A stretch of 64,000 nucleotides of DNA from Malania oleifera (Eukaryota > Streptophyta > Magnoliopsida > Santalales > Ximeniaceae), in NCBI RefSeq assembly GCF_029873635.1, contig NC_080422.1:7099764-7163763 (forward strand), written 5' to 3'. A program made the translations under genes and the position numbers. The notes below the pieces were generated by a model, which saw nothing but the letters and a program-made list of their open reading frames with translations, was not told the DNA's origin and did no database searches. This document shows positions 8,988-48,974 of this stretch, in pieces; positions within the stretch are counted from its first letter, which is position 1; every line of letters begins with the position of its first letter.

Positions 8988-9031
<44 letters not shown>

Positions 9032-11725: not shown

Positions 11726-11762
<37 letters not shown>

Positions 11763-18168: not shown

Positions 18169-18840
18169 TTCCCCTACTTTCGAGTTAAAATATCTAACAA
18201 TTTAAGCCAGAGCCCGAGCTGCTTCGCAGAATTTGCTCCCGCGCATTGAGCGAAGAAGAAGCTTTAAAAAACCTGTAAAAAAAACAAAGACGGAAAAAGA
18301 AAACAAAAGAGAAATAAGATCAAATACCAAGATTTTTGTCGTTAAAGTAAGGGGCGTTTCTGAAAACAGGGCATGGAAAATGGAGGTCGCAGGGTTTGAA
18401 TTTGGCAATTTGGTCAAAAGGGTGTTTTTTTAAAGTGAATTTCACCAGGAATCGAGCTTTCTTTTTGTTCTTTGTTCCTTAACTTTTTTCTGGGTCCATG
18501 CCAAAATCGAGAATGTCAGAGGAATTAAACAACACACTCAGCGGAAACCTGAAGAGCTACAGCTCACAGTTTCATACCTCCAAAAATTTCAAAAAAACGG
18601 AAAACAGATCTGACCAAGACAATGTCCTTCTCTTCAACCCACTTCTACTTCGCACTACTAACTTGGAGTTCAGATGAAGAAAACAGAAAACCTTAAATTA
18701 TGTTCCTTGAAGAAAAATTTCTACAATCGTACTGATAATGATGGTTTCTCGGCACTAATGCAGCATCCAATGAAAACGAACCATAATGCTCACACAAAAA
18801 GTGTGGAAAAGCAAACACAGCTATGATTTTTCCAGAATGT

Positions 18841-24110: not shown

Positions 24111-24115
24111 CATAG

Positions 24116-24618
24116 TGTTGTGCAAATTAATGTGCACGGGAACCAAACCCGAATCTGTAATGCAGCAAGTAACGATGAATGATACAGAAATACAATCACA
24201 CACGGATAATAAGGAAAACAAATAAACAATGACACAATAATTAACGTGGTTTGACAATGTGCCTACGTCTACAAGAGCAAGCGGCGGCTGAAATTCACTA
24301 TCTATCAAAACCAGGGTTACAACATCGTATATATGTTAACCTTACATGTACTAAGGGATTAGGAAGTTCCCCAAATACCCCTGTATCAATTCCTGGAGGA
24401 TTTGCCTCCGAATCTCCAACCTATTGATTTTACCAATTCAAAATTCAAAAGCAGTGCCAAACAAAACCATCGACGATTCTTTTTGTGAACCTAAATCGTC
24501 GATGTAACTATTGATAAAACCGTTGACAGTTTCTTCCTGCAGCCCAACCTCCTTATTTTTCCTCAACATACTTTCTCTATATATGTGTGCCACTAAATAT
24601 GAATCCCATACTACAACA
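24116..24618 (-). repeat. Copia 3' LTR
   Basis: 503-bp LTR. Its start (minus strand, 24618) is preceded by the purine tract AAAGTGGAGAT. A remnant of the matching 5' LTR is at 46374-46429. It contains GTCGATGG/GTCGA-type words near 24460-24540. Confidence 0.88.
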
Positions 24619-25614
24619 ATCTCCACTTTGGCGAATATTCACCCCTTAGGAGAAAAATGAAAACATAACCCACAGCTCCACTTGGGACAATAGGTTGGGA
24701 CGCCTCCCATCTAGCAACTGAAGACATTAATCAAGTCCATGCAATGCTTGAACTTGTTCGTACTTATAGGCTTTGTCAACATGTTTGTTCTATTATCTAA
24801 AGTATGAACTTTCTCAAGCAGTAGTTCACTAAAAGAGACCAATTCCCTGATCCTGTGAAACCTCACATTTATGTGCTTGGTCCTCACATATTACACCTGG
24901 TTCTTTGTCAAATAAATGACACTTGGACTATCACAATGCAACTGAACTCTATCTTACTAAATATCTAACTTCTTGACCAATCCTAAAAGCCATAATGCTT
25001 CCTTGGCAGCCTCAGCCACTACCATATACTCTGATTCAGCTGTAGATAGTGCAACTAGAGGCTGAATCATGGACCTTCAACAAATAGGCCCTCCCACAAG
25101 GGTGAATACATACCCTGTGGTAGACCTTTTGTCATCTAAGTTCCCTGCATAGTCTGCATCAACATATCCAACCACTGAAGGATCATCCTATTGTCTGCTA
25201 AACATAATGTCGTAGTTCGTAGTACCCCTCAAGTATATGAAAATCTACTTGACTGCATCCCAATGTTGTTGACTCGGATTTAAAAGAAACTTGCTAACCA
25301 CACTGACAGCTTGTGCCAGATCCATTCTTGTACAAACCATAGCATATATCAAACACGCCACTGCACCGGCATATGATACCTTTGACATGTAATGAACGTC
25401 GTCATCTATCTTCAGGCACTGAGTTGTAGACAATTTAAAGTGATTTACTAACGATGTACTTACAGGTTTTGCATTATCCATGCTAGATCTCTCCAACACC
25501 CTCTCAACATAGTTACGCTGAGATAACTATTATCTTCTAGACGCTCTATCCTTGTGAATCTCCATCCTAAGAATATTCTTGGCCACACCCAATGCTTTCA
25601 TGTCAATTTTTTTT

Positions 25615-25626
25615 TGTAGAGACCCG

Positions 25627-25666
<40 letters not shown>

Positions 25667-26065
25667 GAAAAATGGAAAACCGGTTTGGTGTAGGACCAAG
25701 TTGTCAACGGTTTTGAAATTAGCAGGGCTTAGTAAAGGTAAAACGGTAAAAATCGGTTTAGTTAAAAACAAAACCGTCAACGATTTTGTCTAGGGCAGTA
25801 GCTTATAAATAGGTTTTTAACTTTTTTTTTTTAGGAAAATTATAACTCTCTCTCTAGCCTGCGCATACCCTCTATCTCTCTCTCTCTCTCTCTTCAATTT
25901 CTCCCCCAAATTTCAACCAAATCGATGATCAGACACCATTTCAGGATCCTAGCTTCGATACTTAGTGATTTAACTGGAGCAAATTGTGGTTTGGGGATCC
26001 TAGGCACCATTCCAGATATAAGGTAAAGGGAATAGATTATGTCAGTTATTTTCAAAAAAATTAAC
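25615..26065 (+). repeat. Left gypsy LTR part
   Basis: It begins TGTAGAGACCCGG followed by an (AAT)n array of about 12 units, then matches 42123-42640 in order, including the TATA-like GCTTATAAATAGG and GGGGATCCTAGGCACCA. Confidence 0.88.
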
Positions 26066-26115
26066 TTGATAAGAATGGTGTGTGCCCAAGAGGGGGGGTG
26101 AATTGGGTATTTAAA
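26064..26115 (-). repeat. Scrap of a Copia LTR end
   Basis: The string GAGGGGGGGTGAATTGGGT matches, on the opposite strand, the terminal part of the solo LTR at 38893-40851. It is a short orphan piece between the gypsy LTR and the BAHD fragment. Confidence 0.5.
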
Positions 26116-26165
26116 ATTTTTTTCCTAGGTTGACTTCAAATTACAATCAGTATAGTACAATGCAG

Positions 26166-28808
26166 GTCACAAGATTGATGTGCGGTGGATTTATTTTTGC
26201 AATTCGCTTCAATCACACAATATGTGATGGACCTGGGTTGGTCCAGTTCTTACACGATTGGGGAAATGGCATGAGGTGGAGACGTCCAATCCCTTTGTGT
26301 AATGACTCAAAGAATAATGGTATTTAAATAATAAAGAGGGAGGGAAATGGAAACAGAAACAAAAGGAAGCAGCAGACTTCGTCGACGAACGCGATGGGAG
26401 TAATAACTAAGGAATTTAATCAAGGACTAGGCGACGAATACAGGGGATTTATTGACGAGAATAACATAGGGTCTCATTGACGAGGGTATGTTTCGTCGAT
26501 GAGAAAATACTGAGAGGATATTTGGGCGACTTTGAATTTCGTCGATGAAGGGTAGAGTTCGTCAACAAATTGTCTCTTGACCTCATCAACGAAGTGACGT
26601 GACTCGTTGACGAGGGCTAGTGAATAAAAAGGTCAAACTTCATTTTTTTGGCAGAATTTTGACGCTCAACCCTCTCTCTCTCCTCCTTACGGTTCCTCCC
26701 TCTTCTCCCTTCTATTTCGGCCTTGTTAGTCGCCAAATCATCGATCTGAGGCCATCACGATACTCTTGGGGAAGTTCTCTTCAAATCTGTCAAAGCGGAT
26801 CGTTAGTGGAAGCAAGTTGAAATTCATCCCTGAGTTAAGGTAAAGCTTTTTATTTGAAATTTGGTCTTTCCACAGTTGAAGGAAATGACGTACTCGAATA
26901 AATACTGAAGTTTAGTTATGAGAATTATCATTTTCAGGGTACTGCTTAAGGTTTACTATGGGTGTAAGACCAGTATTATAGAGGGGCTTTTCAGTTGCCA
27001 GGTAAGGGGATAAATTAAAGCAGTTATTTTTCATTGAAATTACTATTATTTAATAGTAGAATAATTTTTAAAAAGCATGTGATTATATATGTGAGTATAC
27101 TTGAGAAAATGTGAGTTTGGGAAAATACTGCAATTGTACCAGAAATGTGATTTCAGAACGAAATATACGGTTTCATTCAATTCGTGTGGCGTGAATATTC
27201 TTTTATATATATTGTACCACGTTAAGTTAGATTTACAAAATAAAGCATGTTTACAAATATTTTCAGGAATAACATGATAAACACAGTAAATTATGATTAC
27301 AGAATATATGATATGTTCGACGCAAGATCGTAATTGATGGTTGGCGCAAGGCGGCAATTACTCATGTTATTCGACGCAAGGTCACATCTATTCATGTTTT
27401 TGGCGTGAGGCCGTAATTATTATGTTAATGTAGGATTCATAAAATGTTATTATTTGATTTACGATAAACGGTGTATGTTTATGTACTATATGTTATCAGA
27501 ATCCGTATATTAGTTTAGTTCAGCTTAAGGAGCACGGTACCGTACCTTATAGATCAAATATCTATATTTAGATTGGTACTAACCACCCCACGAAGGGGTG
27601 GGAGATGGATAGTCGATATGAATTTCAGTGTAGAGTTATAGACGTCCACCTAGTAGTACGGACTAGGGTGTGGCGGGCCCATCGTACTTACAAACATTTT
27701 TGACTCGATAGTGGTCAGCCAACCATTGTCAGGTCCCGCCTTCGGGCTGCACAACCCGTCATGGGGGGTAATACATGACATCAACTAGCTATACATCCTA
27801 GGTAGTTTTCAGTATTATAGATTATATCAGATATTATATAATTAGTATGATTACTTGGAAGTATGAAATTATATGTTTATCTAACCATATTACGATATAT
27901 GTTTTATGGTATGAGAAATGTACGGTATATGTATTACAACATTAAATATTCATGTTGTCACACAGCTGATTTTAATTTATCTACCCTTATTGAGAGGTGT
28001 CTCACCCTAAGTTTAAATTATTTCAGGAAACCCGGAGAGACCGAAGGGTCAGGGCCGCCGCTGAGTGAGTTGAGCTTCCCTACTAAAAGGGTAAGTTTGA
28101 TCTAGGATTAGGAGATTTTTATTGTAAGATCCTAGGTTTATTTTGATGTTTTGGAGATTGTATATAAATACAGTATCTTTGGGAATATAATAGACTCTGG
28201 TATTATGTAATTTATGGTTGATGAATGTGATTTACATTTACTACTGCCTAGATTCCACTGTGTATGACAGATGTCCTCGCTACCCACGGGTTCGAGTTAA
28301 CTATTTTATTATGTTCTATTATATGATTAGTTAAGCAGGTAGTTACACTCTGCCTATGTACCAATGAGATTTCTTCAATGCTCACGACCTACTGCACGTG
28401 ACTTGCATGCACTATGAATACAAGGAGGCCTACACAGGCCCACCAACAAACACGGGCTCTAATAAGATGGCCCAAAGGCCCTTCTTTTTTGGTCCAAAAC
28501 ATATCCAAGCCCTTAAGGACCAACTCCCACCCCACCTCCAAAGCTCAACCACATTCAAGGTGTTGACTGCCTGTCTTTGGAAGTGTCGCACATCAGCGCT
28601 CGCGCTTCGCCCCGATGAGACCATTCGCATTTCGTTCACCATCAATGCATGTGGCAAGCATGTGGTGCCTCTACCTAGTGGGTTCTACGGCAATGCATTC
28701 GTGTACCCAACTCAAGTTTCCAAGGCCCAATTGTTGTGTGAAGGTTCTTTGGGCTTTGCAGCGGAGATGGTTAAAAAGGTCAAGGCCCAGATTAGAATTA
28801 ATCTTTAA
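26166..28808 (+). pseudogene. BAHD acyltransferase exon 2 fragment, split by a solo LTR
   Basis: BAHD enzymes move acyl groups from CoA thioesters to alcohols or amines in plant secondary metabolism. The part at 26166-26297 reads [20 protein letters not shown] then DGPG, which holds the catalytic HxxxD motif (HTICD). Just before it, a TGCAG acceptor sits where the family's intron ends, so this is a genomic, not a processed, copy. After the LTR insertion and its target duplication, 28353-28808 continues with NAHDLLHVTCMHYEYKE, RPFFFGPK and FKVLTACLWKCRT. It resembles the benzyl-alcohol/HSR201 type. There is an in-frame TGA at 28365-28367. The reading ends at VKKVKAQ, so the last roughly 110 residues, including DFGWG, are absent, and exon 1 is absent. 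It is a dead gene fragment. Confidence 0.88.
26298..28347 (+). mobile_element. Solo LTR (gypsy, family 2) in BAHD exon
   Basis: 2050-bp solo LTR starting TGTAATGACTC and ending GGTAGTTACA. It is flanked by CTTTG (26293-26297) and CTCTG (28348-28352), a target duplication with one mismatch. It is homologous to the reversed copies at 29045-31092 and 34355-36372. It contains many TCGTCGACGA-like words (about 26378-26610) and a short tandem array near 27310-27425. No internal region is present, as expected after LTR-LTR recombination. Confidence 0.88.
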
Positions 28809-29044
28809 CTTAATCTAACTAGAAACTTGTTTAGAGCTTGATCAATTTGTCTAAAATTATTTAACTTGAACTCATATTGACAACAAGTTCTTAAAACAAG
28901 TTTAATTCAATTAAAATCAAACAATAATGAGTATATGGGCGTCCAAGGGCCGTCTAGTTAAGAAATCTCTAAGGTTACATTTTGTTTGCAAAATGCCCAT
29001 TTTCTGGAATATATTAGTTATAGTAAGTTAGTTACAATTAGTTA

Positions 29045-30368
29045 TGTAATGACCTGCTTAATTTCCATATATTTTTTTTTTACAAAATCAATATAATAAA
29101 TCCAGCAAATCATAATCAACCTGAACCCATGGGTATCAAGGATACGTTAGAAACACAATACGGAAGCCTAAGCAGCAGGAAACATAAAATCATAAACATC
29201 TCGTAATATCATACACATAATACTATTCATCTCAATACCAGAGTTATTACATCTATTGTAATTATAAATACACATTCCAAAAGAGTTCTAGGGTCACTTC
29301 TCACAAAACCCATTCGATCATAACAAAATACTTACCCTTCCGAAAGGGCAGGTCAGCTATATCTCTCTTAGCGGAGCTTTATCCGCTCTCCTATCAGCGG
29401 CTCTTGAAATGTTCATATAATAAGGGGTGAGACACCTCTCAGTCAAGGAAATAAACTAATACTAGTGTGTGGCAACATGTGTTTATCCGTATTATACATA
29501 AAACATACATAGACAAGTATAGTAACTGTTGTATGATATTTGGGAAAGCATATATTATCATAGCATGACAGAACATATTGCATTATCATAAACATTATTC
29601 ATCTCATATAATAATAATACGAAAACTACCCTGGTAGGTTAGCTGACTGTTGTCATGCATTAACCCCACATGACTGGGTTGTGTGGCTCGAAAGCGGGAC
29701 CTGACAATGGTTGGCTGATCACTGCTAAGTCAAAAGTACAGTTTGTAAGTTCGATGGGTCTGCCAGACCTGGTTCGTACACCAGGGGCGCTTACACTTCT
29801 TAAAATTACATCGACTATCTGTCCTCACGCTACTCCGTACAGTAGCGTTAACCAATATCATGATGATCATGAACACATAGCAGCGGTACCGTGCAATTTT
29901 CTAGCCTAGACCAAGCCAATCAGGTTCTAATAATATATAGCATATAATCAAACTGTGATACATGGATATTTCATACTAATATTTGCCAAATCAATATCAT
30001 CACATCATTTTACATGTATATATATATATATAATGAAAATCATTGGCCCGTACACTGGTATTTCATATTTTACCATAGCTCGGCCCGTATGCTAACAAAA
30101 CATATCCATAACTCGGCCTGTACGTCGTCAAAACATATCCATAACTGGTCTATATGCCGGTAAAACATATTCATAGCTTGGCCCGTATGTTGGTAAAACA
30201 TATATACAAATTCTTGGTCTGTACGTCGATTTTTCATTATAAAATTCATATCATTATCATATTCCCAGAAAATAGTAATTTATCATAAAATCTACTCATG
30301 CCACGCAAAATGGGTATTATATATATATCCAGAACATATCATCATTTTCAGCAGTATTTCCCAACATA

Positions 30369-30404
<36 letters not shown>

Positions 30405-31092
30405 TTACATATATTTTCCTGAAATCAAATGCTATACAATTTTACTTATAATTTTCATAAAACAACTAGCTTAATTTATCCCCTTACCTAATTCCTCAAA
30501 AAGCTCCTAAGACAAAGCAGTCCTGCACCCGTAGGGTTCCCCATTCAACACCTTGAAAGTGACATTCCCTAGAACTAAACTTCAGTATTTCTACGCGTGC
30601 TACTCTTTCTACAACTGTCGTAAAGTCAAAAATTGAGTAGAAAGCCTTACCCTTAATTTGGGATGAATTTTAAACCAGCTCCACCGACGATCAGCTTCAG
30701 AAGACTTGCAGAAAACTTCATCATGAGCGTTGTGATGGCTTCAGATCTTCGATTCGGTGAGAAACGAAGTCGAGATCGAAAATAGAAGGGGAGGGGAGCG
30801 TTTAGAGAGAGAAAATGAGATTCCTGAGCTGAAATTCTGTCAAAAATCTGGGTTTTAACTACTTATAGCCTCAGATTCGTTGACGAGACACGTTATCTCG
30901 TTGACGAGTCCTGTAAAGGGTTTGTCGACAAACCTGCACCCCTTGTTGATGAGTTTCAGACTACCACAAACCTTCTCTTGGCATCTTCTCGTCGACAAGA
31001 CGTGTCTTAGTCGACGAGACCCTCATGAACCTTTGTCGATGAAACCCCTGTGTTCGTCGATGAAACCCTGATTAATTTCTTGGGTCATTACA
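29045..31092 (-). mobile_element. Solo LTR (family 2), reverse
   Basis: 2048 bp with exact target duplication AGTTA (29040-29044 and 31093-31097). On the minus strand it starts TGTAATGACCCAAGAAATT. GTCGACGA-like words cluster at 30875-31075. Five diverged units with GGCCCGTATG...AAAACATAT lie at 30040-30235. Confidence 0.9.
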
Positions 31093-31097
31093 AGTTA

Positions 31098-31693
31098 TAC
31101 AAGGAATTATGTTATCAATATAGAGTAAAAGACAATGTGAAATATTTTATGAGTTCATAATAAGGAAATACTATTCTTAAATTTTATTATCGTGATGTCT
31201 ACTTCTTTCTTATTACATGGTGAATACAAAACTATGCCTCCGAACCAAACGAGTCATAACTTTCTTAGTTACATATTAAGGACCTAGGGTTCTAGTTTTA
31301 GAAGTTGTGATTTCTTAAGTACACCTTGGTATTTAAGTAAAATAGATCGGTAGACCTTTATTTGGGTGGATTACTCAAATACATGGAACACTCATATTAA
31401 AAACTTTAAAAACATACATAATGTTTAAGTTAACTATATATATATCACTTATATAATATAAAAAATAAAAATAATAAAAAATCAATTAATTTCATAAACA
31501 GTTGTTAGGCTTCATTAACTTGACTTGTCACACTATTTGGAATATGGCTCCAATTCAAATAAAGTCGAACCAAGTTAGCTTCAAATCACAATCACATGTT
31601 TAGAAGATGATCGATCATGCGTACGTACACCATGGACACCGGCGTGTATAGCCAGAAGCTAGGAATTCGCTTGAGTTGCATTATGCATATATG
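31098..31693. other. Spacer left of the Mutator-like element
   Basis: AT-rich DNA without recognised features. It contains the left 10-bp target duplication of the Mutator-like element just after this interval (31694-31703). Confidence 0.4.
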
Positions 31694-31703
31694 GATGGAG
31701 CAT

Positions 31704-32040
31704 GAGTTTTTTCCCAGTTTATCTTTAAAAAAATAAATAAATAAATAATACCCTATTCTGGGAAGTATTTTCCAAAATGACTTTGACGTAATCTCGCTTC
31801 TTGGTCCAGCGAGATTTGATTGGGAAAGTTAGACGCGTGGCAAATCTCTCTGGTTCATAAGATTTTCTTCGGAATACTAATGGGCTCATCCACCTATTGT
31901 TGGACGTGTGGCAAATCTCGCTGGCTCATCTAGTGAGATTCGCTTTGTAATACTAATGGGCTCATCCACCCGCCGTTGGACGCGTGACAAATCTCGCTAC
32001 TTGACCCATCTAGATTTGCTTCGTTCCTGAAACTGCCATT
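31704..32040 (+). repeat. Left terminal inverted repeat of MULE
   Basis: Matches the reverse complement of 40937-40852 joined to 38892-38665. It includes AAATCTCGCTACTTG-type words and their complements. Confidence 0.82.
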
Positions 32041-32779
32041 TCTCCTTCACTTTTGTGCGCAAACATAATAGAGAGCACAGACCTTACACATAGACGTTGT
32101 AGAGAGAAGGAGAGGCTTTGCAGGTGACTGTTACTGAGGCAGAAGGCAACAAAGACTTTGCAAGTAACTGTTGCTCGTCAAACGGGAGGCTACTAACTCA
32201 AGAAATACCTATATAGACAAAGGAGATGAGGTAAGTGGATTTTCACCGTTTGCTCTTGATAAAATTGAAATTTATTTATTTATTTTCTTGAAGAGTTTGT
32301 CAGTTGGATTGATACAAGTTTTAGTGTGAAAGTTTCATTTGGAAACCCCCAAATTTAAGGTTAGAGTTTTTCTTCATTTAATTTGTTATGTGTTATATGA
32401 AATCTACATTTTAGTATGCTTGTATGTATGTTGTATTGATGCCAAAATTCATATGTGAATGTGTAAATTTATTTCAATTTTCATGATCATATACTATTTT
32501 ATATTAGGATTTTTATTTACTTTCATGATTATTTGAGTATTTGATCAATTAATATGTAAATTTTTGAGATTATAGTTTTGATTTCATCTCACGTTTATTT
32601 GAATATATAAATCATGAATGTGTAAATTTATTTCAATTTTCATGATCATTGAATTTAGTTTTAATTTTGAAGTCATATGCATGGAATTGTTAATTTTTTA
32701 TGTTAGGATTTTTATTTAATTCATGATTATTTGAATGTGTAATAAATTAATGTTGAATAAAGTCATATATAGTTAATTG

Positions 32780-33480
32780 GTTTTTTTATGGGGCATGATT
32801 AACATGATAAATTATTTTAATAATATTATTTTAATATAAATTAACATGATAATCATATGTATAAATTATGAACAAGATTATTGTTAATCAAAGAATAGTA
32901 TTATTTTATTTTATTTAATAAAATTATTTAAATATTAATTAAAAGTAATAGTAAACATAATTATTAATTAAACTGTCAATTAAAAATTAACCAAATATTC
33001 TTTTATTATGCATTATAACCTATTAATTATTAATAAATTATAATTAAATTATGGAACGAATAAAAAAAACCATCTATAAATTTAAATTAACATTAAATAA
33101 ATCAAAAAATTAATTTAGTTATAGATACTATTTTTAACATAAATTAATGTGATAATCAAATGTTACAAATATATATTAATAATAAGATTATTGTTAATTA
33201 ATAAATAATATTATGTTATTTTAATTAATAGAAAATAATTAAATTTTCATTAAAAATTAAAATAATTAGCTTTTAAGTTTCTAATTATAAAAATATTATT
33301 ATTTTTATTCAAAATTTATTTAAAAATGGCTATATATTATTTTACTATGTATTATGACATATTAGTTATTATAGTAACATGTTGTAAATATGCTTTAATA
33401 ATAAGATTATTGTTAATTAAACAAAATAATCTTCTATTATTTTTTAATTAGAAAATATTTAAATATACATTAAACAACAG
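32780..33480. repeat. AT-rich degenerate repeats within MULE
   Basis: Units built on AATTAACATGATAATCATATG and AAGATTATTGTTAAT recur here several times and again at 48.4-49 and 52.5-53.3 kb. Confidence 0.6.
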
Positions 33481-33530
33481 TGGGAGGGTTTTTTAATAGT
33501 AAATATTTAATATGCTACATAATTTATATT

Positions 33531-34023
33531 CATAATCGGTTTTAATATCATAGTGGATACTTGTAACCTGACGTTGGAAGCCTAACCTCTGGTTTAACGA
33601 AGCTATGACCGTCCCTAGCGAAACCATTGCATAATCATTTGCATATTTTCATACTCATAATTGGTTTCAATATCATAGCGGATACCCGTAACCAAGCGTT
33701 GGAAGCCTAACCTTCGGTTTAACGAAGCTATGGCTGTCACTGGCGAAACCATTACATAATCATTCGCATATTTTCACACTCATTATCGGTTTCAATATCA
33801 TAGCGGATACCTATAACCTGGTGTTGGAAGTCTAACCTCTGGTTTGACGAAGCTATAGCCGTCACTGGCGAAACCATTGTATAATCATTTGCATATTTTC
33901 ATACTCATTATTGGTTTCAATATCATAGCGGATACCCGTAACCTAGCATTGGAAGCCTAACCTCTGGTTTAACAAAGCTATGGCCGTCACTGGAGAAACC
34001 ATTGTATAATCATTTCATATTTT
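33531..34023 (+). repeat. Minisatellite, 4 units of 125 bp
   Basis: Unit starts at 33531, 33656, 33781 and 33906 give an exact 125-bp period. Each unit opens with CAT(A/T)AT(T/C)GGTTT(C/T)AATATC and contains GCGAAACCATT-like ends; units differ by scattered substitutions. The equal spacing with point differences indicates amplification followed by slow decay. Confidence 0.95.
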
Positions 34024-34354
34024 CATAATTATATTCTGATTATATTCTTTCAATTTGATTTGTAAATCGGGTGACAATTTGATCTAAATGCCTCCTACGT
34101 GGTTGATACAGTGATGTGAATTGCATACTGGTAGATATTATAGGTTCTCACATGCTAAGACTGAATTATTACATTACTTGCAAACGTTTCAGGGACATAG
34201 TAAAAATGGAAAAATGTTCAAATTACAGACAGCATGCTGTCGAAATTTCGGTAGAACTTTTCCCAGAAAAGTAACCATATACTAAGATGAAAACAATTAA
34301 ATGCATGCAAAAATATTTTTGAAATGATGAGTAAAACATATAGGGAATATTTCA

Positions 34355-36372
34355 TAAAATGACCTGCTAATAAAATAAAAATTTTTTTTCCTAGTTTTAA
34401 ATCCAATCATTAACCTAAACAACGGAAAGCCAATTATATAAAATAAGTTCACACATAATACAATACCAGAGTGTCAAATCATCCCACAATATACAAACAT
34501 CACTGTTCTCTCGAAACTATCCTTACTAATACCAAGGGTTTACAAAACATGCGACCCAAAAAAAAAAATAATACTCACCCTCAAAAAGGGCAGTACAACA
34601 GCCCCTCTACCTGCGAGTCTGCTCCATTCGCGTAGTTGGTTCACCTGAAAAATAATTCAACATTGGAATGAGCCAACGCTCAGTAAGATGAAACATGCTA
34701 TTACTCGACTGTGGCTATTAAGCTATAGTTTGGTAAAAATAATCTGATTTAAGAATATTATAAATAATTGAATCCAAAAGTGTTGATATTACATAACATA
34801 TAATAAAACCATTAACTACATAAATGAACATGCCAATCTATATAAAATTACATTTCATATTAATACTACTATTTCTGAAAGCCTAATAGTACTCATAACA
34901 TCTAAGAAATTTCCCTAGATGGTTGTATGTCATGATTTAATCCCTCATGATAGGATTGTGCAGGACGAAGGGGAGACCTATCCTGGCTGGCCGACTAGGG
35001 TAAGTCAACGAAACTCCAACAGTCTGATCGAACCCCTCAATCCATATTTGATGGAGAGCCTGTCCCAACGTGGGCACAATCGACCTCATACCACTTACTG
35101 TCTAAGTAAAGTGGTTGCACTCTGAACTGAATATCTGTAGTTACAGTACCGTGTTCTGCTGTCTGATCCATCAGGGTCTGATACTATATAAGTAGCTGAT
35201 TTCTGTAATATACTGTTTTTACTATGGTTTCTAAAATAACCATAACCCCATAGAATTTATCTGAAATTCTAAATAAACTGACTGGAAATCTATTTTCTGT
35301 ATAACTGAACTGTTATCTAAATATTTGTTTATTGGGGCGTTATGGTACTGATACACGTGTTATTCTCTAATTACTGAAAATGCATACTTCTAAGTATACT
35401 GTACACTGAAAAAATTTGTCATTCTATAAACATGCAAATATCATGGTATTTTTGTTAGTAACTATAAACTTGGTATTCACAAATTCTATAGACATACTAC
35501 TGTTTCTGTTATCAACTTAAGCCACACAAATAAATATTAATATTACCAGGCTCTGAAAACTGCATATATAGTTTAAATAATAAGTTAATACAAGCATATA
35601 ATTTGCACTAAAATCGTATATGGTTGCCTAGCATAACATATTTTCCATTACCTAACTACTGAAAAGCCCCTATGGTATACTGGTCCAACACCTGCAGGGC
35701 TTCCTACTCAACGCCCCGAAAACAACATTCACCATAACAGAATATCATTATTTCTTTGTCTCCATCATTTTCTACAACTACTAGAAGGCCAAAAACTGAA
35801 TAAAAGGCTTTACCCTATTTCTGGGGAGAAATTCAACTTGATTCCACAGATGATTTGCCCTGGTAAACTTGGAGAGAACTTCGCCAGGAGCGTCGTGATG
35901 GCCTCAAATCATCGATTCGGCAACTAACGGGGCCGAAATCGAAGAGATAAGAGGGAAGGACCGTAGGAGAGAGAGAGAGAGAGAGAGAGAGGAATATTTT
36001 TGTTGATTTTTCTGCGATTAAACAAAGTTTAGGACTATTTATACTGTGGCCTTCGTCAACGAGCCACGTCATCTCGTTGAGGAATCTACTAGGAAATTCG
36101 TCGACGAGCTCTCCCCTTCGTCGAAGAAATTCAGAATCTCCCAAAACATTCTCTCGGTATCTTCTTGTCGACGAAACATGTCCTCGTCGATGAGACTCTT
36201 TTGTACCCTCGTCGACGAATCCCCTGTGTTCGTTGATGAGGCCATTAGAAAATTCCTTAGGTTTTTATATCCAAAATGCAATGTTATCCAAAGTCTGCTG
36301 CCTCCTTCTGTTCCTGTTTCCATTTCCATCCCTCTTTATTATTTAAATAACATTATTCTTTGGGTCATTACA
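34355..36372 (-). mobile_element. Solo LTR (family 2) inside MULE
   Basis: 2018 bp, flanked by exact TTTCA (34350-34354 and 36373-36377). On the minus strand it starts TGTAATGACCCAAAGAATAA, nearly as in the copy at 26298. GTCGACGA-like words occupy 36050-36240 and a (GA)n tract is near 35969-35991. Confidence 0.9.
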
Positions 36373-36559
36373 TTTCATGCTTATGAAAGTATAGGGAAGA
36401 TTGCACTAGTCATATGATAAAATCTGAATAATAGATAACTAGTGTAGTTGCTTTAAAAGGATGCTTATACTGTCTCGTATACTTAGTGAAATTAATTCTT
36501 GATTACTATAAGTAACACATAACACTAATACATATAATTTTGTTTTTCATAGGTCTTTT

Positions 36560-37217
36560 TTCTTTCCCGAGCGCCGATCTAAATGGTAGGAAGTTCAAGC
36601 AGTACTTCGATGATAGTATTGTTGTATATAAAGGGGATATTATAACCAGAGCAGATGGTGTTAGTTATAATACTCCTTCAGTTTGACCAATTTGAATTGG
36701 CCATAGGTGTAAATTAAATAAATTGTATACAAAGATATACAAATATTTGCATATTGATCTGCATATTGATCCAGATCAATATGCATTGCAGGTGATCGCA
36801 AGATACCCTTTGCGAGGGTTCAATAATACAGTCTTTTATAAGGCTATTCCCATATCTGATGATTATGGTCTGCGCATTGTGTTGGATGCATACTGCATAG
36901 GTCTGACATATTTAGCTGTGCAATTGTATGTCAAAACCATTTCTCAAATGGGTGTAACCGTAGCTAGGCAGCTAGAGGCACTTGCCGAGCATTTAGATGA
37001 AGTGGAAGAAGACACCCAACAAACACGTCATATCGATATGAGTGCAGAGGTTGGTTGTATGCCTACTGTGGATTTTAACGAATATTCAAGATCGTCGTTC
37101 GAGCCACTGACATACGAAACACTTGTTCCTGACACGTATCCACGAGGAGGTTGCGAAGAAGTCATGACAAACGCATTGGACGAGGGAATGAACATTATGA
37201 ACAATGCTAATCTGTAA
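36560..37217 (+). pseudogene. MuDR-like N-terminal reading frame
   Basis: An acceptor-like TTTTTCATAG precedes a reading with KQYFDDSIVVYKGDIITRAD then GVSYNTPS. After a frame break it continues as an open frame (36723-37217) with YKYLHIDLHIDPDQYALQVI, ARYPLRGFNNTVFYKAIPIS and DDYGL. This order matches the N-terminal domain before the transposase core in plant MuDR-like proteins. The reading has stops before 36720 and nothing resembling the core follows. The ATG at 36723 is internal to the domain, so this is a remnant. Confidence 0.6.
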
Positions 37218-37392
37218 GATGAAGACACGTATGAGCAGGAAACGGGTGAAGGGTTAAATGAGTTCCCCATTGATGTGAACCCACCCCCCCCCCCGTGAAA
37301 CGAATGACGCCACGTACGACGCCCAGTTCATGGACAAGCCTCCGATGTACGATAATATTGACGTAGATGCTGCAAATTTAACTCCGTTGTAG

Positions 37393-37560
37393 TTGTTTGA
37401 AATATGTTTTTCAGTCTTTTCAATGCAGTCACTGGAGGCAGCTTTGAAAACGGTACCAAATGATCGAAATGGGAAAATGTCCAAGGAGTTTCTGCGTGTA
37501 GCACTGGATAAGATTGGGCCTTCGCCTGGTTTACCACCACTAGATGAAATTGGGCCTTGA
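37393..37560 (+). pseudogene. Captured EF-hand host gene fragment
   Basis: The plus-strand frame from 37393 reads LFEICFSVFSM, then AALKTVPNDRNGKM, then SKEFLRVALDKIGPSPGLPP. This closely resembles the C-terminal EF-hand part of a plant calcium-binding family whose hallmark is SK-YLRVALD---PSAGLPP. It sits directly after the MuDR-like reading inside the MULE, as host exon pieces do in Pack-MULEs. It is about 55 residues, with no start codon of its own and a stop soon after. Identification is from memory of the family and needs a database check. Confidence 0.6.
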
Positions 37561-37619
37561 CTAACTATGTTGAGGCCCTCACAAAGTTGTTGATTGCTAT
37601 CACAAGTCATCACTCAATG

Positions 37620-38160
37620 TCTTGTAAGCTTCCATTGTAGAGGGGGCAGATGGAGACGATGAGGATGACCCTGAGGATGTGTGCAGTGCAGTTACTCAAC
37701 GTGTTGGAGAGGCAGGAAAAATAACCAAAAGTTACCCAAGTGTATGACTTTATGTTTCTAGATCTGCGAATCAATGGAAAGAAGACCTCTGCAATGGTGG
37801 AAATTAGGGCTACACATAACTTTGTCTCAAAACTAGAAACATAGAGACTCAACTTGAACTTGGACGACTTAGGACGTATAAAAGTGGTCAGTTCCACGGC
37901 TCAACGTACTCTAGAAGTAGCCAAGCAAGTGACTATGAAGCTTGGATAGTGAGTGGGACATGCAAATTTCATAGTGCCGATGGATGATTTCCAAGTGATA
38001 GTTGGAATGGTATTCTTAAGGTAGAGTAAGGTAGTATTGATGTTGTTTGCTAGTTCCTTTTGCCTGGTGGGGGGTTGTCTTGCATGGTGCAAGCTGTTAC
38101 AAAGAAAAGGGATGACGATAAGTTCCTCTTAACCATGCAAATAAATGGGCACTAGAATCT
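37620..38160 (+). mobile_element. Gypsy aspartic-protease region scrap
   Basis: The plus strand shows short stretches typical of the retroviral-type protease of plant Ty3/gypsy elements (FLDLRINGKKTSAMVE, ATHNFVS, then FIVPMDDFQVIVGM). It is an isolated fossil inside the Mutator-like element, either carried along or inserted. It is broken. Confidence 0.65.
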
Positions 38161-38664
38161 AAAACTAAAGATTTCAAAAAATTCTCAGATGAGGGTCATT
38201 TCTTGGATAATTTTGTAGATTTGTAGAATAGACAAAACTGTTAGACTCTATTTGCATCCAAGATTTTGTGGAAGGGAAGGAAGTCAGAAGAAATAAAAAA
38301 AGAAAACAAATTAGAATTATTAAGATTCTTAGTTAACAATTTCAATAATAATTATTTTTAATTAATATTTAAATATTTTCTACTCAATAAAATAATAGAA
38401 GATTTTCCTATTTAATTAAATATAATCTTGCTATTAGTGTATATCTATAATGTATGACTGTTATATTAATTTATGATAAAAATAATATTTTTAACTAAAT
38501 TACAAAAATGTAATTTATTCCATGTGAAAATTTAAATTAATAAATGATTCTTCCCTCCAATAATTTAATTAATCATTATTATAATAAATTCCCTCCAATA
38601 ATTTAATTAATCATTATTATAATAAATAAATAAATAAGGAGAACACAAAAAATTTCATATGCAC

Positions 38665-38892
38665 AGCAAATCTTGCTACTTGGTGCAGCGAGATTTAAGC
38701 AAATCTCACTGCACCAACTAGCGAGATTTAAATGGCAGCCCAATATGGTCTAGACGTGTGGCAAGCAAGTCTCGCTAGACCAAGTAGCGAGATTTGCCTA
38801 TGTTTATCTTGGACGTGACACATGGCAAATCTCGCTACTTGGTTCAGCGAGATTTGTTTAAATCTCACTCAACTAAGTAGCGAGATTACGTT
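38665..38892 (-). repeat. Right terminal inverted repeat of MULE (inner part)
   Basis: Array of AAATCTCGCT...AGCGAGATTT hairpins, mirror of the left end. It is continued by 40852-40937 beyond the solo LTR. Confidence 0.82.
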
Positions 38893-40851
38893 TGTAGGCT
38901 TTTTGAGTCCAATCTCTATTTTGATGCTAACAAACCACCAGTATCTTATATGTGCATTTAGTGTGTGAACATGTTTCCAATTCGACACGAACATAAGATA
39001 CCGATAGATGGATGCCAGAAGAACTTGAAGAGCGATATTATCTGGCATATTTCATAAGGACAGGAGAGCAAAGAAGAAGAAGAAAAAGACATTTGTTTCA
39101 ATTTGTTTATGCATTTTAATTTTTATTATTCTGGTATGTAATAATGCATGCATATGCATGAAACGATTTGAATGCTCAGACAGAACCGTAGACAGACCTT
39201 AGGGCTATCTTCGGTCGATTGATGCCATGTTTTTTGGGGTAAAATAAAAAAGTCTAGACCTTAGATTGACCCTAGGTCCCTGCACATAATTTTGCTAAAA
39301 ATCAAGAAAAAATCTCAAGTTTGAAAGGGCTTCGAATGATCAAATTGTGTGCGTTGAAAACACCTCGATCGACTGAATGGCTGACTGGTCAACAAGTTCG
39401 ACTTGGTTTGGGTGACCAAACCAAATTGAACTGAGTGTCCCCGGGCGACCGAATCCTTGAGCGATCACTTTTCACCTTCCTCGGGCGCCCAAACTTCATG
39501 TTCAAGTATGCCTCGGGCGACCGAAAGTTGAAGTTTGGCATACCGAACTTTAGACCGGGTGACCAAATCGCGGTTTTTTGAAATTGCCTTTGATTTAGCA
39601 AACCAATCCCATATTCAGGCACTCGAAGTTCAAAAATTATCTTTTTCTTTTGTGTCTGTTCGGGCAACCGAACATATAGCTCAGTCGACTGAAACTCTCG
39701 GGTTGCCAATTTTTTACTAGGGTAATTAAGGTTAAAACTCAATTAAAATATTTCCAAAATTACCAATAGGTCCCCAACAGTCATAATTTTTAGAAAAACT
39801 ATAACCCCTTCATTTGTCAAAATCAATAACTTTGATTAGCCATTTTTTCTTTCTAATTTTATCCTAATCAAAGTTCCCCCAAAAACATTCTTATTGCAAA
39901 AACTCTTTCATTGGGGCAAATCTTTTACTCTCTGAATCTCTCTTTATTATTCTTAAGAAAATCTTTTCAAAGAGAGCATATATTTTATTTGGGCTTTTAC
40001 TTGCTTTGATTTGCACATAGATCTTCAAATGCATATATTTTGTTTTGTGCAAAGTTTTTGAAACTATAACCCTAGGTTCTCCTATGTCTTATTGAAACTA
40101 TTTTTGGAGAAATATTTGATTTAGGGTTTAAATCTTTGAAGTCTTCATCATACATATTATGTTCAAAAATTGGAAAAATATTTTGAGAAACACACTCTTA
40201 CTCTTTTAAGCATACATTTCATATCATATTAGAGTGTTTGCATTTAAGCCTAAATGTGTACATTTTGCTTGTATTTAGAAGCATAGTATTATGTACGAAA
40301 ATGGTTTTTATTGTAATGGTTGGGTTCAGCCTGGAATTGAACTGGGAAGTCTCAACTTGTAAGTGAGACTGGTTCAATTCCGCCCGAAAATTGAACTGGA
40401 GAGTCTCAGCCCCATATGTGAGACTAGTTTGGCTCAGCCTAGTAATTGAACTGAGGTTTTTCTCACTCCATAAGGAGAGAATGTAAAAGGCTTCTGCTCT
40501 GGGTTAGTGTAATCCTTGGGGGTATGCCCAAGGCGGGAATGTAGGCTGTTTTGGCCGAACCTTAATAACAAATCTTGTGTCTCTCTCCCTGTCTCATTTA
40601 AATTACTGCACTTTAAATTCAGTATGTGTATGCCTATTTATTTACTGTTATATTTAGTTGCATGCACACATTTACTTTGAATGAGATATACATGTATGCA
40701 TGAACCAAATAACTTAATTTTTTTATATACACACGTTTAATATTGAATGAGATATGATATGTGGTGAATTGAGGATACACTTAAATTAGTCGAAAAGTTT
40801 TTAAAACCCAATTCACCCCCCCCCCCTCTTAGGATCACACTAATTCCAACA
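38893..40851 (+). mobile_element. Solo Copia LTR (SIRE/Maximus-like) inside MULE end
   Basis: 1959 bp starting TGTAGGCTTTTTGAG and ending in a C-run followed by GATCACACTAATTCCAACA. The flanks ACGTT (38888-38892) and ATGTC (40852-40856) are best explained as a 5-bp duplication of ACGTC with one transition in each copy, because the left inverted repeat shows the uninterrupted GACGT. GGGCGACCGAA-like words recur at 39390-39700. Confidence 0.78.
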
Positions 40852-40947
40852 ATGTCAGAGTTACTCCAGAAATTATTTTCCCAAAAAAGGTATTATTTAA
40901 TATATTTAAAAAAAAAAGATAAACTGAGAAAAAACTCGATGGAGCAT

Positions 40948-41430
40948 ATATAGTTAACACCATGGCCATCCCTTTCTTAATTGTTCAGGAGTTGTATCTG
41001 AAAAATCTCTCCGGAAGAAATAGTTCAGCCTATATATGTCTATATTTAGGAGATTTCCATACAAAGGCTAGTGAATTCTATTTATACCTATTTTTTGATA
41101 GCAGATTGAACTCCTTTTTTTCCTTTTTACTCTTTAAATAAATTACTTTGGCTGTTGTTACATAGAATTATTGTATTTTAAATAAGAAATTCGCAAAAGA
41201 CTTGCCTCCAATATGATTGTGTATGCTATATGACTGCCCTCATCCATTTTATTTTTGGCTCTTGGTCCCAGCAAAATATTATTTGCCTACAAATAAAAGA
41301 ACATTAATTGGATGACCGTTTGATTGGAGTCTATAATTTAAATTTGAAAGTAAAAAAGAATAATTCCCAATCATTTGGTCAATAAAATTGTAACATGAGT
41401 AAGAATATATAATGGACTTGTTCTTGTCCC
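40948..41430. other. Spacer between MULE and gypsy integrase end
   Basis: AT-rich, no recognised feature. Confidence 0.4.
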
Positions 41431-41434
41431 TAAT

Positions 41435-41765
41435 AGGGCTAAGCCCTAGGTATATTGTGCCATTCAAAATATTGGAAAGAATTGGTCTAGTTGCCTATAG
41501 GTTAGCGTTACCCCCGGCACTATTAAGGATTCATGATGTATTTCACATGTCAATGTTGAAAAAGTACGCCCCAGATCCTTCACACGTGATTAGTTATGAA
41601 TCTTTATAAATCAAAGATACTTTATCCTATGATGAAGTGCCAGTTCAGATCTTAGACTGGAAGAAACATGAACTATGTACTAAAAAGATCCCATTGGTGA
41701 AAGTACTCTGGCGTAATCATGCAGTTGAGGAAGTTTCATGGGAATTAGAGGAAGAAATACACTAG
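41435..41765 (+). mobile_element. Gypsy integrase C-terminus / chromodomain part
   Basis: Part of the gypsy fossil. [36 protein letters not shown] and later VLWRNHAVEEVSWELE are diagnostic of chromovirus (Tekay/Del-like) elements. It is broken. Confidence 0.85.
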
Positions 41766-42122
41766 AGATACCCACACTTATTCAGTTACGCCTAGCACGA
41801 GGTAGGTAAGTATTTTGGTTGTATGATTAAGACTTGTTTAGGATAAGTTGTTTAGTTTAAATCTCTATGTATGTGGTATTTAATTTTAAATGGTTTTGGG
41901 AGAACTTTTGTTTGACTATTTGTAATCTCCCAAAGCCCGTATATGTAACCACGGTATTCTTCCGCCATAAGTGAGGATAATTAATAAAATTAGGATGGGG
42001 TAGCTATATGGGTGGCTGTCAGCTCTTTTACAGTGCGAGGTTACCATTTAATAGAATTCCATAGATGGAAAGAGTGCTACTTAGCAAATTTCGAAGACAA
42101 AATTTATATAAGGAGGGGAGGA

Positions 42123-42133
42123 TGTAAAGACTC

Positions 42134-42213
<80 letters not shown>

Positions 42214-43938
42214 GAAAAATGAGAAACTGGTTTGGTGCAGGACCAAACCTTCGACGGTTTGGTAAGCTTAGAGAAAATCGTCGACGGTTTTGAAATTACT
42301 AGGGCTTAGTAAAGGTAAAATGGTAAAAATCGGTTTGGTTAAAAACCAAATCATGAAACCATCGATGGTTTTGTCTGGGGTAGTAGCTTATAAATAGGTT
42401 TTCATCTCTTTTTTTTTGGAAAATCATAACTCTCTCTGCGCTGTGAATACCCTCTCTCTCTTTCTTCAATTTCTCCCTCAAATTTCAGCTAAATCGACAA
42501 TTAGATGCCATTTCGGGATCCTAGATTCGATCCTTAGCGGTTTAACTGGAGCAGATTCATGGTTTGGGGATCCTAGGCACCACTCCAGAGATAAGGTAAG
42601 GGGAATAGATTATGTCAGTTATTTTCAGAAAATTTAACCGATTAAATTGTAGTATTTGATTACAAGAATAATACATATAATTTTCTGAGTATTCAGACAT
42701 ATGGAAATAGAAATTTTGAAATTATTATTATATGTATGTTTTGGGAAAGACCGAGTATTTGAGTTTCAGAAAAACCCTAGAGATGATTATACCATTATTT
42801 TCAGCAGATGAATATAGTTATCCCAGGCAGATTATTATGTTATGAATTATCACTCAAATTGTGTGGCATGAGTAATGAATATGTTACAGAATAAATAAAC
42901 CTGTTAAAATATTTTATGAAAATATACAGCAAAGTATAGTTTTACACAGAATTATGATATGATAGATTTTTATAGAGTTATGAAATAACAGTTCATACAA
43001 CTTTATGCCGAATTTAGTTCAGATGACTTTATGCCGAATTCCGTTTAGATGACTTAATACCGAATTCAATTCAAACGACTTATGCCGAGATATGAAATGA
43101 CAGTTTTATACATAAATATGACCTGTCAGATTTTATACAGACTTATGAAAATGCGATCCAGTTATAATTTTCTTAGATATAAACAGTATTATATGATATA
43201 AGAACCTTGATGCACCAATTATATTCAGAGCAAAGTATCGTTGCTAGTCAGATCAGTCAGTATCACCATACTACTCAGATAGAGTGTTGGTGTATGGATA
43301 GTCGATTGTGCCCAGAGAAGAGTACTGTACCCCTCCTGGTAGTCCGGATTAGGTTGGGTAGGCCAATCGTACTTACAGATGCGTTATGTTTGGCTTAGCG
43401 TGGTAGGCCAACCATTGCTAAGTCCCACCTACGGGCCACACAACATGATCATGTGGGGTTATTACATGATATTATATGATTGTCCATTCAGGGGAAAATT
43501 CTTTTATGTATAGATATAACATATGATTTACATATATAGAGAAACTTACTACGATGTAGTATGCTTATGTTGAAAAGTATGTATTTTCCAAACATATATA
43601 TACGAGTACAAATTTACATGATATATCAGTTAAAGTTAACCATTTATAGGATATGTTTATGATACACTAAAACTCATGTTGCCACACACTGGCGATAATC
43701 TATTCCGTCTTACTGAGAAGTTTCTCACTCCTATAATTCTAACATTTCATAAAATCTAGGGAGCCGAGTTTAGGGAGCTCCGGGGTAGAACTATTTATTT
43801 TTGGTTTGAAGTTAGTGCTGGTGAGACTCTAATGTGTACATGTTTTATGTTATGTGTGTCTGGGATGTATTCAGGATTTTTTGGGATTTATGTATGTAAT
43901 TATGGTGACATTAGAACTCGGGTATTGTATTTGGGGTT

Positions 43939-43978
<40 letters not shown>

Positions 43979-44118
43979 TGCTTTTGCCATGTTGTTTAAT
44001 ATGAGATATGGACAGGTGTCCCAGTACTCCACTTTGGGTATGGGTCGGTATAGTTATGGTTTCAAAGATATACGTAGGTAGATAGCACTCTGAGCCCCAC
44101 CGGATTCGGGGCGCTACA
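42123..44118 (+). repeat. Right gypsy LTR
   Basis: 1996-bp LTR starting TGTAAAGACTCG and ending GGGGCGCTACA. It has an (AAT)n array of about 25 units (42135-42211), GTCGACGG-like words (42245-42370), a TATA-like CTTATAAATAGG, a small array with ATGCCGAATT (43000-43090) and a (TA)n tract (43946-43975). Confidence 0.9.
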
Positions 44119-46373
44119 TTTTTGGCTCAACAAAGTTTTCAACTTGTTGACCTTAGTTATACTTTTTGTAGCAATCAACATGTCATCCACATAAAGTAAT
44201 AGAAAAATAAATGAACCATCATCAACGTTCTTCACATAAACACAACAATCATACTTACATCTCCTATAGCCAATCTAGATCATGTAGGAGTCAAACCGCT
44301 TGTATCACTACCTCGGAGACTACTTTAGTCCGTAAAGTGACTTCCTCAGTTTTCATACCCAATATTCCTATCCAGGTTGACTGAAACCTTCTGGTTGTTC
44401 CATGTAAATCAGCTCCTCTAAATCACGAAAAACGTTGTTTTTATGTCTATTTGCTCCAAATGCATATTGAAATGCGCTACCAATCCTAACACTACCCTGA
44501 TGGACATGTTTTGACCACAGAGGAGAAGATCTCATCATAATCAATCCCTTTCCTCTGTGAGCAACCCTTTGCTACTAACCGAACCTTTAACTTTTCTCCT
44601 TCTTTTTCTGATACCGCTTCTTTCTTTCTATATGCCCATTTGCAACCTATCGCTCTCTTCCCCTTTGAAAGCTTCACTAACTCCCATGTCTAGTTCTTAT
44701 GTAAAGACTCCATCTCTTCCACCATAATAGCCATCCATATACTTTTCTCTTGACTGTGCACCGCCTCTTGAAAAGTAGTAGGATACCCGCTACTAGTCAT
44801 GAGTGCATAAAAAATCATATCATCAAATCCATACCTAGGAGGTGGCCTGATAGTGCATCTAGGCCTGTCTATAGCTATACTGTGATGCTACTGGTGGTCT
44901 CCTGAGTTAGGACTCCCTACATTTTGAATATTTTCATCTCTGCCATAAGTCTCTAACTCCAACTACACTACATGCTCATTGTTGCTGCAGTTTTCTGCCA
45001 TATGTATCTCTTCTTCTTCTTGAGTACGTTGCATCTTCTCACTATAAACATGTACATAGGTTGTACGTCCAAACACTCTCAAACCAGAGTAGTCTACCGC
45101 ATTGCCTGTCTACACCTCCTCTGCAAATTTCTCATCTAGTGGTGCCTTTGATGATCTGTTAATCATGAAACACGCCCTATTTTTTGCATCTGCCCATAAG
45201 TTCTTTGCAAGCCCTGCATTGAACCTGAGACACCGAGCTCTTTCAACAATTGTTCTGCTCATCCTCTCCGCCACACCATTTTGTTGTAGTGTCTCGCGTA
45301 CTGTGAAATGTCTCCTAATGTCATGCTGCTCGCACAACTCCATGAACCTTGTATCTGTGTACTTAGTACCATTGTTAGACCTGAAGCATTTGATTTTCCT
45401 CGTCTGATTTTCCATTTCAGATTTCCACAATTTGAACTTGGCAAACGTATCTGACTTGTGCCGCATGAAATACACCTAGACCTTTGGTGAGTCATCATCA
45501 ATAAAAATCACGAAATACATATGTCCTCCTCGTGATACTACCCTTGCTGGCCCCCAAACATATGGATGAATGTAGTGAAGAATTCCCTTTATCTTGTGCA
45601 TGACTGTTATGAACTGCACCCTATTCTATTTCCCAAGCACACAATACCTATAGAAATTCATCTTGCATGTTTCGACACCCTTCAAAATATTTCTCTTATG
45701 AAACTCCATCATCTCACGCTCACCCATATGCCCTAATCACATATGCCACAAGACAGTACTATCTGATTCAGACTCTACAACTGTAGCTCCACCTACAATA
45801 GTGGTACCTAACAGTATATAGATATTCTTTGGTAATTTCTACCCTTTCATCATAGTTAGGACACCTTTACTCACCTTCATTATCCATCTTTTAGACTTGT
45901 AACTAAACCCATTACAATCTAAAGTGCCCAATAAAATAAGATTCGTCCTTAACTCCGGTATATGCCTAACATCACACAATGTTCTCACAACACCATCAAA
46001 CATTTTGATTATGATATTCCTTATTCTGACAATTTTGTATAAAACACAATTTCCTATTAGAATAAAACCAGAATTTACCAACCTGTAGGTGGTGAACCAC
46101 TTTTTGTTTGATGTCATGTGATAGGAACACGCCGAATCTAAGATCCAAGAATCTGTGAAAAGATTTGAACCAAACGATACAGAAAGCATATCCCCGTCAC
46201 CGCTCTCTTAGTATCCTTCTTCCACTACATTCGCAGATTTTGATGAACCCTCTTTATTTTTTTTCATTCTCTTTATTCCTATCTGGAAAATTTGGTTTTA
46301 TATGCCCTTTTTGCCTGCACTTAGAACACCGTACGTCCTTCCTCTTCCTGCAGCTTAGCTTGCTTGTTTTTTC

Positions 46374-46429
46374 TTAGCATGCTTTCTCTGCATATGTGTT
46401 CCACTTAATATGAGTGATATACTACAACA
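46374..46429 (-). repeat. Remnant of Copia 5' LTR
   Basis: It resembles the start of the LTR at 24116-24618 (GTGTTCCACTTAATATGAGT versus GTGTGCCACTAAATATGAAT on the plus strand) and abuts the CATAG duplication. Confidence 0.75.
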
Positions 46430-46434
46430 CATAG

Positions 46435-48420: not shown

Positions 48421-48970
48421 AGTGGTTGTTTTATAATTTTAAAAATAGAGTAGAATATAATCATATATTATATTATTTTATTTAATAATATATTAATTAT
48501 TACTAAAACATAATTCATTTTTGGAACAAAGAAGAAGAATCATTTATTAATTTAAATAATATTAAAAATTAAAAATTTTGATTTAATTAGTAATATTATT
48601 TTAACATAAATTAATATTGTAATCATATGTTATAAATATAAATTAAGAATAAGATTATTGTTAATAAAAAAATAATAATATTATACTATTTTAACTTTAA
48701 AAAGTACTGAATATTAATTAAAAATAAAGGTTACTGTAATTATGAATTAAATTTTTAATTAAAAATTAATCATATATTATTTTCCCACGCATTATAACTA
48801 TTACTTATTAATAAAATATGATTGAATCCTAGAATGAAGAAAAAAAAACCATATAGAAATTTAGAAAGAACATTAAATAAACTAAAATTTTTAATTTAGT
48901 TATTAGTGATATTTTTAACATAAATTCATGTGATAATCATATGTTCTAATTGGAATTAATAACAAGATTT
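48420..48970. repeat. AT-rich repeat, left part
   Basis: Contains AAATTAATATTGTAATCATATG and AAGATTATTGTTAAT words shared with 32780-33480 and 52470-53340. It appears continuous with 52470 onward once the LTR-like block between is removed. Confidence 0.55.
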
Positions 48971-48974
48971 AGTT

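Follow-up and report, generated by a model that had tools for sequence, protein, structure and literature searches.

Chromosome C6 of Malania oleifera carries, within the stretch of 64,000 nucleotides analyzed here (the window, C6:7099764-7163763), a nest of transposable elements in which a Copia retrotransposon is split by a gypsy retrotransposon. The gypsy element in turn encloses a patchwork of DNA from three other chromosomes, interrupted by solo long terminal repeats (LTRs) and by a Mutator-like element (MULE). The most probable explanation is that gypsy suffered a break, whose repair removed much of the element and added filler templated on three chromosomes. The composite, its donors, the overlaps between its pieces, the empty sites of its layers and their order are directly observed, and together they make the locus readable as a succession of events.

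Patches copied from three chromosomes

Between the gypsy parts lie 15,372 bases (26066-41437). Searches of the genome (1.494 Gb, 510 contigs), in which each query returned the best 40 candidates scored, gave pieces of differing sources for this stretch. Three patches, all on the plus strand, are each 90-95% identical, piecewise, to one locus, and the three loci lie on different chromosomes (C5, C11 and C10); each patch has one best donor. Without later insertions the patches total ~1.9 kb, including 88 bp that the C11 donor lacks. Patch 1, copied from C5, comprises the last 9 nt of the intron of a BAHD acyltransferase gene with the beginning of its exon 2 (26157-26297) and, beyond a solo LTR termed A, more of exon 2, truncated before its 3' end (28348-28795). 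It is 90% and 92% identical to its donor on the two sides of solo A, the latter value comparing with 67-68% for the four next relatives, and the fragment matches PF02458 with E-values of 1.2e-8 and 1.4e-10. Patch 2 (28791-29045 and, beyond solo LTR B, 31093-31579) was copied from C11, with 90, 90 and 95% identity over three stretches. Patch 3, copied from C10, runs from 31600 to 31703, where it ends with GATGGAGCAT, and resumes after the MULE at 40938-41406, with 91% identity on either side. Differences between patch 1 and its donor cluster at 28354-28372, beside solo A, far above the patch average. The 88 bp in the right part of patch 2 (31396-31483) represent either an insertion here or a deletion in the donor.

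The left edge of the patchwork is formed by P0 (26067-26160, minus strand), a 94 bp terminal LTR stub of another element, E0, lying in the gypsy LTR. Repeat matches place its start at the LTR terminus, and its repeat family makes up 38 of the 39 non-self matches listed. Just outside this LTR end, three of six copies (L038, L042 and L043) have sequence that resembles a reversed tRNA-Met primer site. At the right edge, 31 bp (41407-41437, plus strand), for which reading and genome searches identified no source, separate patch 3 from gypsy. The sequence-only reading that preceded this analysis had listed, for the middle layer, a BAHD fragment with a solo LTR in it, another solo LTR and a Mutator-like element. 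The fragment, with solo A inside it, stands, but the layer as a whole is no simple nested set; it is a patchwork of three donors with the E0 stub, in which solo B lies within the C11 patch and the MULE within the C10 patch, neither being inside the BAHD fragment. A single contiguous BAHD locus as the source of the whole layer was dropped in view of the three donors.

P0 and patch 1 have ACAA in common at their joint, and the end of patch 1 shares 5 bp with the start of patch 2. A filler of 20 bp (31580-31599, plus strand) separates patch 2 from patch 3; bases 31579-31594, the first of which is common with patch 2, match P0 (26134-26149) at 15 of 16 positions. The word length of 16 was picked after this match had been seen, and none of 3000 random 22-mers from outside both places matched as well. 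Among the matches listed, no non-self match crosses a joint (0/39 for P0/patch 1, 0/40 for patches 1/2, 0/41 for patches 2/3 and 0/39 for patch 3/gypsy), and the patches were found adjoining each other only at the present locus. The features of filler from double-strand break repair are thus found together: a deletion, a copied insert, short matches at two joints and copied filler at a third.

The direction and substrate of copying can be read from the gene fragment. In the C5 donor both exons of the BAHD gene are open, covering positions 2-141 and 133-432 of the 434 in PF02458, so copying ran from C5 to C6. The piece in the window is part of exon 2, cut at both ends and split by solo A, with a stop just before 28368. 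Because 9 nt of the donor intron are present, patch 1 was not copied from a spliced mRNA. Near the C11 donor and near the C10 donor, one open frame each was run against Pfam, and neither scored above curated cut-offs; C5 is therefore the only donor established as a gene.

These observations bear on whether a transposon delivered the patches. The gypsy element could have captured the fragments during reverse transcription, by template switching among packaged RNAs, and inserted as a chimera, the route by which the maize retrotransposon Bs1 reportedly acquired gene fragments. Patch 1 does lie in the same sense as gypsy, and the patches are alike in divergence. The left LTR, however, is cut short and joined to the E0 stub, unlike a normal product of reverse transcription; patch 1 retains intron bases, though these might stem from an unspliced transcript; divergence between patches and donors is lower than that between the two gypsy LTRs (see below); and no further copy with these joints occurs among the matches listed. 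We regard this route as very unlikely, and capture of the BAHD fragment by gypsy was dropped on account of the broken left LTR, the intron bases and the lower divergence of the patches.

A capturing DNA transposon, a Helitron or Pack-MULE, might also have brought the three fragments into gypsy, since multiple gene fragments, introns included, can travel in elements of these kinds. Here the outer joints fall at the E0 LTR stub and within gypsy pol, and no Helitron- or MULE-like ends were seen at these edges when they were read by eye, with no systematic terminus search. The one MULE found here came later, since its 10 bp duplication falls within patch 3 and the donor of that patch shows its empty site; as carrier it was dropped because that empty site lies in the C10 donor. 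Delivery by a capturing DNA transposon is most improbable on this evidence. Gene capture by transposons in general is described in PMC3445842.

Target duplications and empty sites

All the ends and target duplications that the sequence-only reading had named for seven insertions are present on direct check, and for six of the seven an uninterrupted target occurs in the same genome. Copia (24116-46429, minus strand) is flanked by CATAG at 24111-24115 and 46430-46434, by direct reading. The gypsy element (25615-44118, plus strand) has TTTTT on both sides, the left one within 8 T. Solo LTR A (26298-28347, plus strand) lies between CTTTG and CTCTG, solo LTR B (29046-31092, minus strand) between two copies of AGTTA, and the MULE-like element (31704-40937) has inverted ends with GATGGAGCAT on both sides, a 10 bp duplication where 9-11 bp are expected. 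Solo LTR C (34355-36372, minus strand), within the MULE, is flanked by TTTCA twice, and solo LTR D (38893-40851, plus strand), within the right terminal inverted repeat (TIR) of the MULE, by ACGTT and ATGTC.

Comparison of random position pairs within 20001-50000 gave chance agreement rates of 0.0018 for an exact 5-mer, 0.024 for one with at most one mismatch, 0.136 for one with at most two, and 4.4e-5 for an exact 10-mer. Judged by these rates, CATAG, AGTTA and TTTCA carry weight, GATGGAGCAT most of all, and CTTTG/CTCTG is moderate evidence. The pair flanking solo D is not significant alone, since 5-mers with up to two mismatches agree by chance at 13.6%, and TTTTT is a weak duplication because it lies within a run of T. 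The solo D and gypsy insertions are backed by empty sites despite these weak duplications.

Solos A and B and the MULE landed in patches, and the donors of those patches are therefore natural empty sites. Donor C5 is continuous across the site of solo A and reads CTCTG there. Donor C11 is continuous across that of solo B, reading GATTA, with two differences from the AGTTA found twice in the window. Solo B sits in a dispersed repeat, whose halves also adjoin, by comparison of match lists, at C1:80088167, C4:83220388 and C7:5277964. Donor C10 has a single GATGGAGCAT.

The remaining layers were compared with relatives of their host elements, seven of Copia and seven of the MULE, each set drawn from 40 non-self matches listed. 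All seven Copia relatives are contiguous across the gypsy site to within a few bases, with TTTTT visible in three of them (L046, L047 and L051). The solo C site is likewise contiguous in 7/7 MULE relatives, which read TTGCA there, compared with TTTCA in the window. For solo D the site is contiguous in one of the seven (L062); in the other six, the two sides did not occur together among the best 12 pieces listed, and none of 93 non-self matches extends past 38892, where the solo D LTR starts. The corresponding site in the left TIR of the MULE itself reads ACGTC, so that ACGTT and ATGTC are explained by one C-to-T change each.

The genome thus yielded empty sites for six insertions and none for Copia, whose right flank had one further match of 30 bp (the left flank was not searched). 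With the exception of this outer element, every layer combines a duplication with an uninterrupted host.

The split Copia and gypsy elements

The 3' part of Copia (24116-25614, minus strand) contains the 3' LTR, starting at 24116, RNase H and the end of reverse transcriptase, as judged by reading and DNA matches, and its last five bases are TTTTT. The 5' part (44119-46429, minus strand), delimited from relatives and Pfam, contains the TTTTT duplication, reverse transcriptase, integrase, the end of gag and 87 bp of the 5' LTR. This LTR, reduced to ~87 bp, is joined straight to gag (46343-46350), most of it and the leader having been lost, and ~140 bp present in 7/7 relatives are gone at 45028/45034. 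Pfam detected Pol_BBD (E 1.1e-23) and, under curated cut-offs, rve (E 0.0021) and RVT_2 (E 2.8e-5), and integrase precedes reverse transcriptase by minus-strand positions, the order of a Copia-type pol. The ends of the two halves are contiguous within a few bases in 7/7 relatives, so the proposal that they rejoin holds at the DNA level. That they do so in the middle of reverse transcriptase appears from this contiguity, mainly, and from frame reading; RVT_2 lies below its cut-off, and the single left piece of reverse transcriptase tested gave no Pfam hit.

The gypsy element is a remnant, with 451 of ~1996 bp of its left LTR (25615-26065), ~0.7 kb of the 3' end of pol (41438-42122; PF24626, Tf2-1-like SH3, E 1.1e-19) and its right LTR (42123-44118, delimited by the LTR match), all on the plus strand; reverse transcriptase is absent from it. 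An LTR pair, a 5 bp duplication and a gypsy-type pol end identify it. Among the best 40 of 2661 candidates, the best non-self match of the left stub is the right LTR of the same element (83%, 384 bits; the next reaches 326 bits), indicating that the two halves belong together.

This last match also speaks against an assembly chimera, in which unrelated sequences would have been joined in a repeat-rich region whose structure is known from the assembly alone. The window is free of N, and the patches differ by 6-9% from their donors and carry later insertions with duplications. Such an artefact is extremely improbable.

The MULE contains two further repeat features. Tandem repeats of 125 bp lie at 33523-34014, their copy number seeming to vary among relatives, and AT-rich stretches (32796-33454) recur downstream of Copia at 48545-48973 and 52478-53267. 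The single frame tested for a MuDR-type transposase (36696-37214) gave no Pfam hit; we therefore call the element MULE-like and possibly non-autonomous. A second MULE end was not found within the window at up to three mismatches.

Relative dating

The sequence-only reading had held that the order of insertion provides a relative clock. That order and its use as a clock hold, and divergence agrees with nesting: Copia LTRs are the most diverged, gypsy LTRs come next and the patches last. Kimura two-parameter distances are 0.247 +/- 0.064 between the Copia LTRs (88 sites), 0.156 +/- 0.023 between the gypsy LTRs (387 sites) and 0.076 between patches and donors (1750 sites), or 0.247, 0.124 and 0.059 without CpG. 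These counts leave out the start of the gypsy LTR with its microsatellite, gapped sites and patch edges, and the ages are relative only. The gypsy LTRs (53/387 sites differing) are significantly more diverged than the patches from their donors (125/1750; p 6e-5, or 4e-4 without CpG), also with patch edges untrimmed (134/1775; p 2e-4). The difference between Copia and gypsy LTRs is not significant (p 0.13; p 0.03 without CpG). No clock was based on the divergence between the MULE TIRs (0.41), because these ends could have been unlike from the outset.

The same counts bear on whether the three patches came in one by one, at different times, through distinct repair or insertion events. Divergence from the donors does fall from patch 1 to patch 3 (0.087, 0.075 and 0.066, trimmed). 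These differences, however, are not significant (p 0.47, or 0.12 with edges untrimmed), and each patch directly adjoins the next patch or short filler. Separate entry is unlikely.

Proposed sequence of events

We infer a double-strand break, repair synthesis with template switching (by synthesis-dependent strand annealing or a microhomology-mediated process) and a single event for the three patches. Copia inserted first, followed by gypsy into Copia and E0 into the left LTR of gypsy. The chromosome would then have broken within the E0/gypsy stretch, and repair would have lost most of E0, what remained of the left LTR and almost the whole interior of gypsy. The gap would have been filled with ~1.9 kb from the unlinked C5, C11 and C10 loci, two of the joins showing 4-5 matching bases. 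Solos A and B and the MULE later entered the patchwork, and solos C and D the MULE.

Several observations weigh against this account. The dispersed repeat in patch 2 at the solo B site (34 matches at 79-89% and 38 at 69-82% among those listed) means that C11 is singled out only by the full length of the patch. No source was identified for five bases between patches 2 and 3 (31595-31599) or for the 31 bp before gypsy, nor an explanation for the 88 bp of patch 2, and some joints consequently lack a clean overlap. With edges untrimmed, the likeness of the patches is less clear (55/589, 45/640 and 34/546 sites differing; p 0.12), because of a concentration of differences next to solo A (~28354-28365). 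The patches may also seem too young, if donors near genes change at a lower rate than a methylated LTR. Finally, filler in the maize cases quoted in PMC2686159 has a length of 1-131 bp and a local source; the insert here is far longer.

A wider suggestion is tentative and rather doubtful: that the repair of a single break copied three loci one after another, each on its own chromosome and at least one a gene, and that transposon nests are traps where multi-donor repair assembles chimaeras that can be dated, from gene sequence and other single-copy DNA. The choice of donors may record which loci lay close to one another in the nucleus.

Other features of the window

Upstream of the nest, a leucine-rich repeat receptor-like kinase gene occupies 10518-18201; the N-terminal part lies at 16801-18201 and the remainder of the kinase domain at 10521-11186, and the two match adjoining parts of the profile. 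Another Copia lies between the kinase parts, apparently in an intron, with gag at 13396-14007 and repeats at 11603-11992 and 14688-15083 that are probably its LTRs. A 126 bp inverted repeat with a 106 bp tandem repeat between its arms is found at 8683-9387, and a further degenerate Copia-like element, by open-frame reading, at 61192-63965 on the minus strand.

Comparison with known systems

Nested LTR retrotransposons were reportedly described in maize by SanMiguel in 1996. The present locus shares with them elements within elements, whose order and relative age follow from nesting and LTR divergence; it differs in that one layer is filler from three chromosomes, the donors of which serve as empty sites. 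That elements nest, and that nesting can serve as a clock, is established knowledge (PMC2686159; PMC6911290, on 12 plant genomes).

The locus also resembles filler from double-strand break repair in combining a deletion with a copied insert of foreign DNA and short matches at its joints. Such filler, or gap patching, was reportedly treated by Wicker in 2010, a study that PMC7156093 and PMC3445842 both cite. It is established in plants, often short and local, and gene-bearing filler at transposon insertions has been described (PMC7156093, PMC3445842). Here there are three donors on three chromosomes and ~1.9 kb inside a nested retrotransposon, compared with the 1-131 bp given for maize in PMC2686159. 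Among the titles listed in literature searches, none dealt with filler from three chromosomes within a nested retrotransposon, and we make no claim of novelty.

With capture of the Bs1 type the locus has in common several unlinked gene fragments between LTRs; it differs in that intron bases survive, the left LTR is broken and divergence is lower in the patches than between the paired LTRs. The locus cautions against assuming that a retrotransposon captured whatever gene fragment is found within it. What the window preserves is a probable repair event in which donors, most joints and later insertions are readable and three donor-copy pairs time it relative to the transposons. It is most likely an unusually legible, relatively dated example of two known processes, nesting and filler DNA.

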